Assembly: GCA_019637265.1 (NCBI GenBank)
Contig: JAHBVY010000001.1
Coordinates: 1,426,001-1,490,000, forward strand
Origin: Polyangiaceae bacterium
GTDB taxonomy: Bacteria; Myxococcota_A; Polyangia; Polyangiales; Polyangiaceae
Reading direction: 5' to 3'
DNA: 64,000 nt
The notes under the pieces are model-generated. The model saw only the letters and a list, made by a program, of their open reading frames with translations, did no database searches and was not told where the DNA came from. Of this stretch, positions 2,664 through 59,921 are shown piece after piece. The translations under genes and the position numbers were made by a program. Numbering within the stretch: position 1 is the stretch's first letter; every line of letters begins with the position of its first letter.

Positions 2664-3074
2664 GGTGATCTGAGCCTCAGCGCGCTCGCGCTGCTCCTGG
2701 AGCGACGAACGGTTCACCTTTTATCGCTCGATGACAACCAGAGAGATCGGCGCCAGCCATAGCGCCGCGCACTGCCTCGCCAACCCCCCCCGATCCCCAG
2801 CACACAGCGCGGACGGTCCACTCCACGCCGGGCCGCTTCGACGCCCTACCCGCGTGTCGCTGGTCGCCGTGGTTTTTTGGGGGTTGGACGGCACCGCGCT
2901 CGTGCAGCTCCGTGACCTGCTCCAAACGGGCACACCGCACGCCGAGCTTGCTTCATCAGCACGCGCGGCGACCCTCCCCCATGAGCCCCGGTCACGCCGC
3001 GCGCTCCTCCTCCGTCCGGCTAGGCCGCGAGCCGCTAGATTGACTGACGTGGTGCGAGAGGGTAGGCCCACGCC
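2664..3074. other. Non-coding gap between divergent genes, carries a dispersed repeat
   Basis: No convincing gene lies here. The gap separates pepP from the gene at 3075 and must hold both promoters. It carries one full copy of the dispersed GGTTGGACGG repeat (2873-2900) and an inverted partial match, CCAACCCCCC, near 2780-2789, about 120 bases away. A TTGACT at about 3039-3044 is a weak -35 candidate for the rightward gene, with no good -10. Confidence 0.5.
2873..2900 (+). repeat. Dispersed intergenic repeat, full copy (T6-G5 form)
   Basis: Six T are followed by the 19-base core GGGGGTTGGACGGCACCGC and then GCT. It is the clearest copy of the family in the window and reads towards the rightward gene. 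Confidence 0.75.
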
Positions 3075-6861: not shown

Positions 6862-6884
6862 TGGGGGTTAGACGGCACCGCGCT
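6862..6884 (+). repeat. Dispersed intergenic repeat copy
   Basis: TGGGGGTTAGACGGCACCGC plus GCT matches the family core with one change (TTAGAC for TTGGAC). It sits in the gap between converging genes, and its right end abuts the TAG stop of the pseudouridine synthase (6885-6883). Confidence 0.7.
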
Positions 6885-10408: not shown

Positions 10409-10428
10409 GCGGTGCCGTCCAACCCCCC
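10409..10428 (-). repeat. Dispersed intergenic repeat copy
   Basis: Read on the reverse strand this is GGGGGGTTGGACGGCACCGC, an exact core match with one extra G. Confidence 0.75.
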
Positions 10429-19632: not shown

Positions 19633-19660
19633 GGGTTTTGGGGTTTGGCAGCGCACCGCC
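19633..19660 (+). repeat. Dispersed intergenic repeat, TTTGGCA variant
   Basis: GGGTTTTGGGGTTTGGCA then GCGCACCGCC. This is the variant form in which TTGGAC is replaced by TTTGGCA while CACCGC is kept. It lies just before the end of the cysteine synthase gene. Confidence 0.55.
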
Positions 19661-22773: not shown

Positions 22774-24213
22774 ATGTCCGACTCCCCCAAAGTGCCCCAG
22801 AGCCCGACAGTCCTTGGTTCGCCCGACGCCAGCGGCGCCGAGCTGCGCATCGCGGACGCCGCAGGCGCGGGATCCGCCAGCGAAGCCAAGGGCGCGTCCG
22901 ATGGCCACGCACCCACCTCGACGGGCAGCGTGCTCATCAGCGCGCTCGCGGCGCACGTGGGCCGCGTGGTTCGCCTGGAGGGCTGGCTCAAGAACATGCG
23001 CTCGAGCAAGAAGCTCCACTTCCTCGAGCTGCGTGACGGCACCGGCGTCGTCCAGGCGATCGTCTCGCTGGGAGACGTGGGGGAGGCGCTGTTCGAGCGC
23101 GCGGGGCAGCTGGGTCAGGAGACCAGCCTCCGCGTGGTGGGCGAGGTGCGCGCGCACCCGAAGCAGCCCGGCGTGTTCGAGATCGGGGTGAGCGCGCTCG
23201 AGGTGATCGCGGAGGCGCACGACTACCCCATCAGCCCCAAGGCGCACGGCACCGACTTCCTGATGGACCACCGCCACCTGTGGCTGCGCTCGAGCCGCCA
23301 GCACGCCATCTTGCGGGTGCGCCACGCCATCATCCAGGCGGTGCGGCGCTTCTTCGATGAGCGCGACTTCACCTTGGTGGACGCGCCGGTGTTCACGCCC
23401 AACGCCTGCGAGGGGACGAGCACGCTGTTCGAGACGGACTATCATGGTCAGCCTGCCTACCTGACTCAGAGCGGGCAGCTGTACATGGAGGCGGCCGCCG
23501 CGGCGTTTGGTAAGGCGTACTGCTTTGGTCCGACTTTCCGCGCGGAGAAGAGCAAGACGCGGCGTCACCTGGCGGAGTTCTGGATGGTGGAGCCCGAGGT
23601 GGCGTTCATGGACCTGGACGGCGACATGCAGCTGGCGGAGGACTTCCTGTGCTTCATCGTCGATCACGTCTTGAAGACGCGGCGCCCGGAGCTCGAGAGC
23701 CTGGAGCGCGACCTCACGAGGCTCGAGCGCGTGAAGGCGCCGTTCCCGCGCATCAGCTACCGCGAGGCCATCACGCTGCTTCAGCAGGCAGGAAAAGAGG
23801 TCACGTTCGGTGACGACTTCGGCGCCGAGGACGAGACGATCATCAGCGAACAGTTCGATCGGCCGGTGATCGTCCAGCGCTACCCGTCGGCGATCAAGGC
23901 CTTCTACATGAAGCAAGATCCGGAGGACCCAGCGCTCTCGCTGTGCATGGACGTGCTCGCGCCGGAGGGCTACGGCGAGATCATCGGCGGCGGCCAGCGC
24001 GAGGACAGCCTCGAGCTGCTCGAACAGCGGATCGCCGAGCACCAGCTCCCGAAGGAGGCCTTCGAGTGGTACCTCGATCTGCGCCGCTACGGCAGCTTCC
24101 CCCACGCCGGCTTCGGCCTTGGCATCGAGCGCACCGTGGCTTGGCTGTGCGGCCTGCCCCACGTGCGGGAAACAATCCCCTTCCCCCGCATGTTGAGCCG
24201 CCTGTCACCTTGA
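22774..24213 (+). CDS. asnS: Asparaginyl-tRNA synthetase
   Basis: AsnRS attaches asparagine to tRNA-Asn. The 479-residue product has the N-terminal OB-fold anticodon-binding domain ([20 protein letters not shown]) and class II motifs: motif 2 [21 protein letters not shown] and motif 3 [31 protein letters not shown] is the AsnRS/AspRS loop, and the core length fits AsnRS. About 50 residues precede the OB-fold, rich in Ala, Ser and Gly; these may be a real extension or a misplaced start. The gene diverges from the C2/PDZ lipoprotein. Confidence 0.93.
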
Positions 24214-24244: not shown

Positions 24245-24275
24245 TTTTTTGGGGTGGGTTGGACGGCACCGCGCT
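24245..24275 (+). repeat. Dispersed intergenic repeat copy, left end of an inverted pair
   Basis: Six T, GGGGTGGGTTGGACGGCACC, then GCGCT. The core is intact apart from an inserted TGGG in the G-run. It is the left boundary of the block ending at 24485. Confidence 0.7.
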
Positions 24276-24462
24276 GGGTGACACCTCACGACGCGCTGCG
24301 TGAGGCGCTCACAGGTACGGTGCGCGCTTCACGCGCTGTGTGACGCTTCACGGCGCTGCGCGCGCGCCTCATGGCGCGCTGCGTGGCACTTCACCGCTGC
24401 GTGTGCGCGCCTCACGGCGCGCTGCGTGACGCTTCGCGGCGCTGCGCGTGCGGCGCTCGCGG
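24270..24462 (+). repeat. Degenerate tandem repeat of about 43-45 bases
   Basis: Three to four units begin with CGCGCTGCGTGACGCTTC-like text and end with GCGCGCCTCACGG-like text; examples start near 24375 and 24418. The units differ by small changes and lengths. They lie wholly inside the inverted repeat pair. Confidence 0.6.
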
Positions 24463-24463
24463 T

Positions 24464-24485
24464 GCGGTGCCGTCCAACCCCCAAC
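24464..24485 (-). repeat. Dispersed intergenic repeat copy, right end of an inverted pair
   Basis: On the reverse strand this is GTTGGGGGTTGGACGGCACC followed by GC, a full core match facing the copy at 24245. Confidence 0.7.
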
Positions 24486-24799
24486 CCGGACCCAAGCCCT
24501 GAAGAGATGAAACGTCGAAGCCCGGATGAGCCAGCGGTAGTCAGCCTCATGTCGGCATCGACAGCTCCAAGCGCGCTGCTGATCCGAAAACAACGGCTGC
24601 TCCAAGCGAGGTGAGGTGCGCGCGGGCGCCACAGGCTGGCATGACATGGGTGTCGTGATGGCATCCTCCGCTCGTTCGCGTAGGCTTGTGAATGAAGCGC
24701 TCCGCACCCAGGTCCTACATGAGCCGCGGGCAACACCCGCCCACCTCATGAGCAGGGGGCCCACGTCGCCACGTCACGCCGCCACTCAGGAGACCTCAA

Positions 24800-25648
24800 A
24801 TGAGGATGTTCGCCTTCATCGGCAATCGACAAGACGTCGGCTCCAGGATCCTGGAGCTGACGCCGTCCGTGCTCACGGTGGAGGCGCCCGCGGGTGAGTC
24901 GCTCGGTTGGGGCGTTGGCTTCTACCAAACGGGGGAGGTGCTCTTGCGGCGGCGCCCGCTGGACGATCGCGCGGTCATCGATCTGGTGGAGGTGACGCGC
25001 GGCGTGCGGTCAGATCTCCTGATTGGTCACGTGCGGCGGCCGACCATCGGGGATCTCCGCACGGAAAACACGCACCCCTTCCGCTACCGCCAGTGGCTGA
25101 TGGCGCAGACCGGCACCATCCCCCACTTCGACCGCCTGCGCGGGCGCATGCTGGAATCTCAGCCGGAGTTCCTACGACGAAACGTCCGCGGGGACACCGA
25201 CACCGAGTGCTTCTTCTACCTGGTGCTCTCGTTCCTCCACGACGCGGGGCACCTCGCGAGCGACCACGTGGAGCCGACGCACGTGCGGCAGGCGCTCCGC
25301 TCCGCCATGTCCCTCGTGGACCGGTTGACCCAGGAGGTGGGCGCACCAGAGGCCCGCGGGGACATCCTGCTCACCGAGGGGGAGCACCTGTTCGCCGTGC
25401 ATCGGGGCGGGGACATGGGGCTCCGCCGCATCGAGGGGCGGGCGGAGCTGACTCAGCTGCTCGGCGACACGGAGCCGGGAGCCGGGAGCCCCGCCGCGAG
25501 CTCTGCGAGCGTCGCAGGCCTGGATCAGGCGCGTTTCTACGTGCTGAGCTCGGGAGCGGCGCCGCTCGGCTCACGCTGGGAGCGCGTCCCCGAGGACACG
25601 CTGCTCACCCTGTCACGCACCGAAGATCCGGAGCTCGAGCCGCTGTAG
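24800..25648 (+). CDS. Class II glutamine amidotransferase-like protein lacking the cysteine nucleophile
   Basis: The 282-residue product has the Ntn fold of the YafJ/EgtC group: LGWGVGFY (35-42), GHVRRPTIGDLRTENTHPF (76-94) and GDTDTE (131-136). These match the GWG.FY, HxRxxTxG...NTHPF and G(E/D)TDSE motifs of active members. Active enzymes begin Met-Cys-Arg, and that Cys, exposed as residue 1, is the nucleophile. Here the protein begins MRMFAFIG with no Cys, and the HNG motif is AQTGT (102-106). Amidase activity is therefore unlikely. Either the start is misread or this is a catalytically dead, perhaps regulatory, member. No synthase partner lies nearby. The stop falls in a tandem repeat. 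Confidence 0.75.
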   Translation: MRMFAFIGNRQDVGSRILELTPSVLTVEAPAGESLGWGVGFYQTGEVLLRRRPLDDRAVIDLVEVTRGVRSDLLIGHVRRPTIGDLRTENTHPFRYRQWLMAQTGTIPHFDRLRGRMLESQPEFLRRNVRGDTDTECFFYLVLSFLHDAGHLASDHVEPTHVRQALRSAMSLVDRLTQEVGAPEARGDILLTEGEHLFAVHRGGDMGLRRIEGRAELTQLLGDTEPGAGSPAASSASVAGLDQARFYVLSSGAAPLGSRWERVPEDTLLTLSRTEDPELEPL

Positions 25649-44174: not shown

Positions 44175-44195
44175 GCGATGCCAAACCCCCAAAAA
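44175..44195 (-). repeat. Dispersed intergenic repeat, TTTGGCA variant
   Basis: Reverse strand: T5, GGGGGTTTGGCATCGC, so the T-run and G5 are present and TTGGAC is replaced by TTTGGCA. Confidence 0.6.
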
Positions 44196-45906: not shown

Positions 45907-45930
45907 TGGGGTTTGGCGGCTGCCGGTGCG
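45907..45930 (+). repeat. Dispersed repeat fragment
   Basis: TGGGGTTTGGCGGC followed by TGCCGGTGCG, the TTTGGC variant of the core. Confidence 0.4.
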
Positions 45931-45943
45931 CCATGGCCCACGG

Positions 45944-45958
45944 GTTTTTTTGGGGGTG
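45944..45958 (+). repeat. Dispersed repeat fragment (T7-G5)
   Basis: TTTTTTTGGGGGTGC: T-run and G-run only. Confidence 0.4.
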
Positions 45959-46101
45959 CACTCCCTCCTGATGCGCCATGTACCTCTTCGAGTTGACGCC
46001 GTTCATCTGCTGAGAGGCGCTGGGGGCACGGTCGTCGACCTCATGAGCGGATCCATCGTCCCTCAAGAGCGCCTCATGGTAGCGAGGGGCGTTGAAGAGC
46101 C

Positions 46102-46118
46102 GGTTGGACGGCCGCGCC
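46102..46118 (+). repeat. Dispersed repeat fragment
   Basis: GGTTGGACGGCCGCGCC keeps GGTTGGACGGC and loses two bases of CACCGC. Confidence 0.45.
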
Positions 46119-46130
46119 ATCCCGGAACCC

Positions 46131-46670
46131 TCAGAGTTGCCCGGGCCACTCCGTCTCCGCGAAGCGCGTCAGCCTGCGCGCCACGGTGCCCCAAGCCGTG
46201 AGCTGCTCGCCCGCGCGGCGCTGAGCCCTCCGCGCGAGCCACGCGGAGACCGCGCCCGTGACGACGCCCGCCGCGATGCACAGGGCCAGCGTGGGGAGAC
46301 CACCGCGCCCGCTCAACCACTGGATGAGCGCCACCGCCGCGCAGAACCCGCTGGCCGCCACGGCGATGCGCGTCGCGCTCTTGGCCACGAGCCCGGCGCT
46401 GTTCAGCTCATGCTTGAGGAGGCCCAGGCTCAGGTTCAGCTCCGCCATCACCTCACGGGCGCTCTCCGCCGCGAGGGCAGCCGCGACCAGCTCGGCGCGA
46501 AGACCGCCCGGCAGCTCAGGCTGGAGCTGCTCCAGCTCGGCGCGCGAGCCCAGGCGGAGCTTGGAAGCCAGCTCGGCACCATCATCCACCGCGAGCAGGC
46601 GCTGGTAGCGGCGCGCGCTGACGAAGCAGCAGGCGCCGCCGACACCCCAGGCGATGACCGGCCAGATCAT
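46131..46670 (-). CDS. Two-helix-pair membrane protein, unknown function
   Basis: The 179-residue product has an N-terminal hydrophobic segment (WPVIAWGVGGACCFVSA). Two more lie near residues 108-145 (RIAVAASGFCAAVALIQWLSG and LPTLALCIAAGVVTGAVSAWLA), with an amphipathic helical stretch between. The organisation resembles MotA/TolQ/ExbB-type proton channel subunits in spacing, but the conserved proline and threonine positions are not clear, so I do not call it that. It lies between the TonB-like and small periplasmic genes and so may serve the same machine. Confidence 0.7.
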   Translation of the reverse strand: MIWPVIAWGVGGACCFVSARRYQRLLAVDDGAELASKLRLGSRAELEQLQPELPGGLRAELVAAALAAESAREVMAELNLSLGLLKHELNSAGLVAKSATRIAVAASGFCAAVALIQWLSGRGGLPTLALCIAAGVVTGAVSAWLARRAQRRAGEQLTAWGTVARRLTRFAETEWPGQL

Positions 46671-56034: not shown

Positions 56035-56058
56035 GGGGGTTGGACGGCACCGCTCTCG
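56035..56058 (+). repeat. Dispersed intergenic repeat, full copy, left end of an inverted pair
   Basis: GGGGGTTGGACGGCACCGCT then CTCG: an exact core match without the T-run. Confidence 0.75.
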
Positions 56059-56265: not shown

Positions 56266-56283
56266 ATGCCAAACCCCCAAAAC
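56266..56283 (-). repeat. Dispersed intergenic repeat, TTTGGCA variant, right end of an inverted pair
   Basis: Reverse strand: TTTTGGGGGTTTGGCAT. It faces the full copy at 56035, about 250 bases away. Confidence 0.65.
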
Positions 56284-59792: not shown

Positions 59793-59810
59793 GCGGTTCC
59801 GTCCAACCCA
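59793..59810 (-). repeat. Dispersed intergenic repeat, near-full copy
   Basis: Reverse strand: TGGGTTGGACGGAACCGC, with a short G-run and C to A in the core. Confidence 0.6.
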
Positions 59811-59896: not shown

Positions 59897-59921
59897 TTTG
59901 GGGGTTAGACGGCACCGCGCC
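59897..59921 (+). repeat. Dispersed intergenic repeat, full copy
   Basis: TTTGGGGGTTAGACGGCACC then GCGCC. TTAGAC replaces TTGGAC, as in the copy at 6862. Confidence 0.7.

Follow-up and report, generated by a model that had tools for sequence, protein, structure and literature searches.

The two inverted arms at positions 24245–24485 of the window, the 64,000-nt stretch of DNA analyzed here (bases 1426001–1490000 of contig C1 of a 5.7-Mb genome with ~70% GC), are probably independent, minimal copies (~20 bp) of a family of short interspersed repeats, one that has colonized intergenic DNA across its genus by insertion. The unit is not the pair but the single arm, a copy of a dispersed motif here called A.

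The inverted pair and its folding

The initial annotation described two facing repeat copies at 24245 and 24464 with degenerate tandem units of ~45 bases between them, and both observations hold: perfect 17-bp inverted arms lie at 24256–24272 and 24464–24480, 191 nt apart, and enclose a tandem array with a period of 43, 4.0 copies, and 75% matches. A first A copy is indeed found at the boundary given as 24245, but this position is the start of its T/G-rich leader, and the arm begins at 24256. The 43-bp array has no second match anywhere on the 1.97-Mb contig C1, and the open reading frames within the block matched no Pfam family. The window has 11 matches to the 14-mer TTGGACGGCACCGC (≤2 mismatches); shuffled sequences have 1.2 ± 1.2, with a maximum of 4. 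The stop of the neighboring class II aminoacyl-tRNA synthetase gene precedes the A copy by 43 nt, on a gene map drawn with a codon-score caller, whose start positions are approximate. The block would represent two oppositely oriented A insertions into the spacer 3′ of this gene, with a local tandem array enclosed between them (Table 1).

Table 1. Repeat copies and neighboring genes in the window
Feature	Position	Strand	Basis
A copy: T/G-rich leader 24245–24255 and core GGGTTGGACGGCACCGC 24256–24272	24245..24273	+	inverted-arm and motif search
A copy, inverse: GCGGTGCCGTCCAACCCCC 24464–24482 and short A/C-rich tail	24464..24487	-	inverted-arm and motif search
Degenerate 43-bp tandem array between arms, outside the repeat family	24284..24452	.	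tandem-repeat analysis
Class II (D/K/N) aminoacyl-tRNA synthetase gene, neighbor	22774..24213	+	PF00152, E 2e-71
Class II glutamine amidotransferase gene, neighbor	24800..25648	+	PF13230, E 3.5e-15
A copy with TTTTTTGGGGG leader	2872..2897	+	motif search
A copy, TTAG variant	6866..6881	+	motif search, intergenic survey
A copy with GGGATCGGGG leader	10409..10424	-	motif search, intergenic survey
A copy	56038..56053	+	motif search, intergenic survey
A copy, one mismatch, points away from copy at 59903	59793..59808	-	motif search
A copy, TTAG variant	59903..59918	+	motif search, intergenic survey
C copy	19640..19651	+	motif search
C copy	44178..44189	-	motif search
C copy GGGGTTTGGCA, partner in pair 56035/56266	56266..56277	-	motif search
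Diverged B copy, 3′ end GGAGGGAGTGCACCCCC at low-coordinate end	45913..46131	-	C1:1471913-1472131, E 1.5e-49

Folding of both strands of the block gave z-scores of -8.2 and -6.9. The value of -8.2 arises mostly because of the 17-bp arms, the interior without them giving -2.9 against an intergenic background of -0.9 ± 1.1. The three facing A–A pairs on C1 reached -5.1 to -8.6. Solo copies of A and of a second motif, C, fold like background, and a structured RNA was rejected for A and C on this ground; with no Rfam match in the window, the suggested structured RNA cassette fared poorly.

The other pairs that had been named as similar resolve differently. That at 56035/56266 is an A copy facing a C copy (56040+/56266-), with arms complementary over a few bases only and a folding z of -0.3; that at 59793/59897 consists of two outward-pointing A copies (59793-/59905+); and the weaker pair at 2779/2873 combines a third, unrelated leader type with an A copy (2779/2884). 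The interiors of the noted pairs are mutually unrelated. On C1, A–A pairs within 300 bp number 4, vs. 10.8 ± 3.4 under random intergenic placement, and A+C pairs 10, vs. 31 expected, so that pairs overall are rarer than chance; facing pairs number 3 for A–A (2.7 expected) and 7 for A+C (7.9 expected). Among leader-type neighbors of all types within 450 bp on C1, 15 face each other, 11 point outward, and 1 of 27 runs in the same direction. Recombination that removes closely spaced direct repeats would account for the near-missing same-direction neighbors.

It is highly improbable that the inverted pair is itself the unit, whether a hairpin element of the REPIN or MITE type or a cassette for a structured RNA. 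Folding of the block far beyond shuffles, the z-scores of the three facing A–A pairs, and the neighbor orientations speak for it, but the folding excess stems from the arms, facing pairs occur at the random rate, copies are mostly solo, and pair interiors and spacings are unrelated; REPIN copies, unlike A, are mostly doublets, which are in excess and 93% inverted (PMC3116915). In view of the unrelated interiors and a pair frequency at chance, the pair was rejected as a transposon or cassette. The proposed miniature inverted-repeat element also had to be given up: most copies are solo, their ends are not inverted repeats, no target duplication was seen, and one pair is unlike the next in its composition, orientation, and interior.

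Motif A in the intergenic DNA of one genus

Motif A, GGGGTTRGACGGCACCGC (core GGTTGGACGGCACCGC), is present in 378 copies at ≤1 mismatch in the 5.7-Mb genome (180+/198-); its reversed control gave 0. The conserved stretch consists of three Gs, the 16-mer, and purine-any-pyrimidine, with ~12 nt of T/G-rich sequence 5′ of these, and inspection of the core GGGTTRGACGGCACCGC revealed no internal dyad. Copies are intergenic in 49 of 50 cases in the 864 kb surveyed first, and 3 of the 99 exact 17-mers on C1 lie inside genes. Elements are scarce within 90 nt upstream of start codons (14 vs. 46 expected) and frequent 30–120 nt past stop codons (75 vs. 46 expected). No preferred distance of A to genes was found, and no preferred orientation to the flanking genes (codirectional/codirectional 15, opposite/opposite 13, opposite/codirectional 12, codirectional/opposite 9). 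Strand polarity is likewise absent on C1 (61+/57-), with 48 copies on the leading and 70 on the lagging strand as assigned from the GC skew, which switches near 780–800 kb. Start-codon avoidance and post-stop excess, without orientation or strand bias, is the pattern of tolerated insertions. A promoter or terminator role for A was rejected for lack of orientation bias, and a replication-polarized (KOPS-like) motif for lack of polarity over the full contig. Spacers holding two elements are rarer than by chance (11 vs. 27 ± 4), as is the joint occurrence of A and C in one intergenic region (2 vs. 10.8 ± 2.8 at random).

Among relatives, the A 16-mer occurred at chance level in 39 genomes, and the matches listed for public genomes and viruses included only single chance-level ones in unrelated taxa. 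The sister species (G001) carries a diverged dialect, GGGGGTGAGGCGGCACCGC. The pattern TGGGGGTNNNNCGGCACCGC was found 113 times in the genome under study and 8 times in the sister species, with a control of 0 in both, and 77 further genomes of the taxonomic family gave 1 match in total. The dialects have their outer halves in common, and the 4-nt center is uniform within each species and different between them. The repeat family is restricted to the genus. Conservation of the block's position across distant relatives, which the initial annotation had named as evidence against its reading, was not found, the motif being absent outside the genus.

The sister genome also holds 46 TTTGGGGGTTNG sites, most of them GGTTTGGGGGTTAGGCGC, where the control has 3. 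Of the GGTTTGGGGGTTAGGCGC copies sampled, about half are in frame as VWGLGA, in signal peptides or N-terminal membrane segments, and these in-frame copies use the rare codons GGG and TTA.

The main alternative holds that A is a functional recognition site, for a chromosome-organizing protein, a regulator, or DNA uptake, which selection keeps in place and for which the sister species has another dialect. Such a site would agree with the ~1% variation per site across the 16-nt core while adjacent bases vary freely, with the almost invariable purine beside the core and pyrimidine at the third position, with the rarity of A and C in one intergenic region, and with the outer halves common to both dialects. 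However, we consider it unlikely, as strand polarity and any preferred gene orientation or distance are absent, A is nearly missing from genes, unlike uptake sequences, and the 4-nt center is uniform within species though different between them.

The long form and the evidence for insertion

A long form, B, measures ~165 nt, has the left end of A and the right end ACCCCC, and is present in ~68 genome copies according to a covariance model; an alignment of ~185 nt covers seven loci in the vicinity of A copies. Its first bases, GCGGTGCCGTCCAACC, are motif A in reverse, and it finishes with GGAGGGAGTG(A/C)ACCCCC; GCGGTGCCGTCCAACC and GGAGGGAGTGMACCCCC, the two ends, do not form an inverted repeat. 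Eight young B copies share 93–99% identity with their nearest relatives over ~159 nt between flanks that are unrelated on both sides, and this near-identity fixes the ends of B at GCGGTGCCG and ACCCCC. The right end is followed by 5–15 nt of A/C-rich sequence that differs from copy to copy. A is therefore equivalent to the two ends of B brought together over a center of 4 nt. No B was found in the sister species, and 23 other relatives gave only two marginal matches (E 8e-5 and 3e-4); B is private to its own species.

All three frames are broken in most B copies, and a protein-coding origin was rejected on this ground. Folding of B revealed no msDNA-like hairpin, and its covariation was 0.193, vs. 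0.132 in shuffles, with few both-side changes and a pairing of 88.8% that is partly by construction. Rfam searches at eight B loci returned only a chance-level match outside the element. In the B copy at C1:1666805-1667006, the left-end region GCTGCCGCGCGGATGRCYACGTCGACTACCCGTCCAACC is repeated at the right end, with GACTAC, not GCGGTG, as alternative left end.

Motif C consists of GGGGTTTGGCA followed by a loosely conserved NNCNCT and has its leader in common with A, as do the smaller families TTTGCCTGCACCGC, TTGGT.., TTCGCCCC.., and TTGGGGA... As the right end and the leader are all that families C to K share, the picture of one two-ended element simplifies matters. A sigma-54-like reading of C (TTTGGCA..CTGC) was dropped by eye, with a spacing one off and no gene polarity.

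The flanks of 420 elements were joined, and matches without an interruption were sought in 2.4 Mb of the genome, giving one convincing empty site; the remainder were coding repeats or chance. At C1:962145, the 20-bp GGGGGTTGGACGGCACCGCG is flanked by TCTAG and CTCTCTGA in a copy of another dispersed repeat family, of which uninterrupted paralogues exist at 522918, 628853, 455657, and 985480. Nothing was lost or duplicated, and this A copy has no A/C-rich tail. As the sole empty site, it sits in a diverged paralogous repeat of the same genome, not in a conspecific strain. Flanking direct repeats, as a target-site duplication would leave, showed no excess over all A copies.

The amplification of B between unrelated flanks, the A copy at one empty site, and the avoidance of start codons are evidence that the family spreads by insertion. 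The mobility suggested in the initial annotation is supported by the solo copies, the empty site, and the amplified B, but this support concerns single arms and their longer relatives, not the inverted pair. The outer ends of B are nearly invariant and its interiors differ by ~29% on average, a contrast that fits recognition by an enzyme but also a function of the ends in place, as in the recognition-site alternative. The 20-bp insert and the 165-nt long form, however, would not be expected of a recognition site.

The insertion at 962145 has as its host a shortened copy of J, a dispersed repeat of ~165 nt that contains strong hairpins (CTAGAGCGGCGATC..CGCCGCTCTAG and GAGGACGACAAACGGTAAACCGTTTGTCGTCCT). 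Copies of J on C1 lie at 173614, 329559, 881891, 905172, 1006021, 1157690, 1198605, 1259864, 1359989, 1668330, and 1765471. The genome also contains intergenic, palindromic REP-like repeats, GTAGGGGCGGGTTTGAAACCCGCCC and GTAGGGGCAGGCCCCCGTGCCTGCCC, with a GTAG foot (e.g., C1:337184 and 1743774), for which no Y1 transposase was found, and a CRISPR array (C1:1941025-1974442) with 462 repeats of CCTTCTGAGTCCTCCGGGACTCAGCCCCATTGAAGC and 461 different spacers, mostly of 35–38 nt. The contig ends 62 nt past the last CRISPR repeat, so the array may be longer.

Candidate movers and comparison with known systems

Searches of the genome, which is 98.5% complete, found no reverse transcriptase, no match to the REP-type Y1 transposase family PF01797 (control genomes were positive), and only two tyrosine recombinases. 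Reverse transcription could have inserted the elements as copies of a small RNA or single-stranded DNA, with the A/C-rich stretch past ACCCCC as a tail. This is very unlikely: although the copy-specific sequence past the right end of near-identical B copies, the A and C tails (on the other strand, mostly 60–99% G/T over the first 10–15 nt), the asymmetric ends without target duplication, and a reported precedent in msDNA-like repeats of Nannocystis would all suit it, the enzyme was not found, the A copy at the empty site is tailless, and B has no msDNA-like hairpin and weak covariation.

If the arms are minimal inserted copies, as we prefer, the element, read on the other strand, would comprise a left end (rgy)GCGGTGCCG, a short center, and the right end ACCCCC, often with 5–15 nt of A/C-rich sequence after it. 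The center would be 4 nt in A and ~150 nt in B, with yet another version in the sister species, and copies would settle where they are harmless, not <90 nt before starts and often 30–120 nt after stops. We infer that a host enzyme or an extinct one may recognize the ends GCGGTGCCG and ACCCCC in trans, most likely in a single-strand-type (HUH-like) or comparable process without target duplication. It is conceivable, and we advance it tentatively, that the family represents a genus-restricted, ultra-short mobile class with a ~20-bp unit, asymmetric ends, no target duplication, interchangeable centers of 4–150 nt, and an A/C-rich tail particular to each copy, moved by something other than a reverse transcriptase or any known REP transposase.

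The intergenic DNA of bacteria is shaped by small dispersed repeats, of which the best understood rely on a transposase that can be identified. In the present case, a 20-bp sequence reaches almost 400 copies in a genome where no known mover was found, and its dialect in the sister species keeps the outer ends. How small a mobile DNA sequence can be, and which enzyme moves it, are therefore directly testable in this system.

Like REP/REPIN sequences mobilized by RAYTs, A has a short, species-specific core of 16–20 nt, hundreds of extragenic copies, no target duplication, and, as we infer here, mobility in trans. Its core, however, is non-palindromic, solo copies prevail over inverted doublets, and no Y1 transposase was found in the genome; the number of A–A pairs (4 within 300 bp vs. 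10.8 expected), the 0 matches to PF01797, and the lack of a core palindrome set A apart from REPINs. MITE-like repeats of the RU, BOX, or RUP type resemble B in being non-autonomous, ~100–200 bp long, intergenic, and amplified in one lineage, and the empty sites and mobility expected of them have their counterpart in one paralogous empty site and in young B copies between unrelated flanks. Unlike them, the present family lacks terminal inverted repeats, showed no target duplication, has a minimal form of ~20 bp, and carries several bodies on one end.

An attC cassette site is the palindrome RYYYAAC...GTTRRRY, used with an integrase. GTTRGAC in A fits GTTRRRY, yet there is no conserved partner box, and neither of the two tyrosine recombinases is shown to be IntI, so A was rejected as an integron attC. 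The DNA uptake sequences of Neisseria and Pasteurellaceae share with A the hundreds of copies of a short motif, the species dialects, and occasional inverted intergenic pairs; A differs in its near-absence from genes, its A/C-rich tail, its long form with the same ends, and its insertion at an empty site.

In the myxobacterium Nannocystis, Lampson and Rice reportedly proposed retroposition for msDNA-like repeats in 1997. That work is cited in PMC6868368. The msDNA/retron-like repeats of Nannocystis exedens are reportedly likewise dispersed, short, and non-coding, with retroposition suspected; they differ from the present family, in which no reverse transcriptase or msDNA-type hairpin was found and the minimal form is 20 bp. 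Taken together, these repeats belong to a known kind, the small non-autonomous repeats of bacteria, and form neither an inverted-repeat cassette nor a structured RNA, and within that kind the present family differs from those described.
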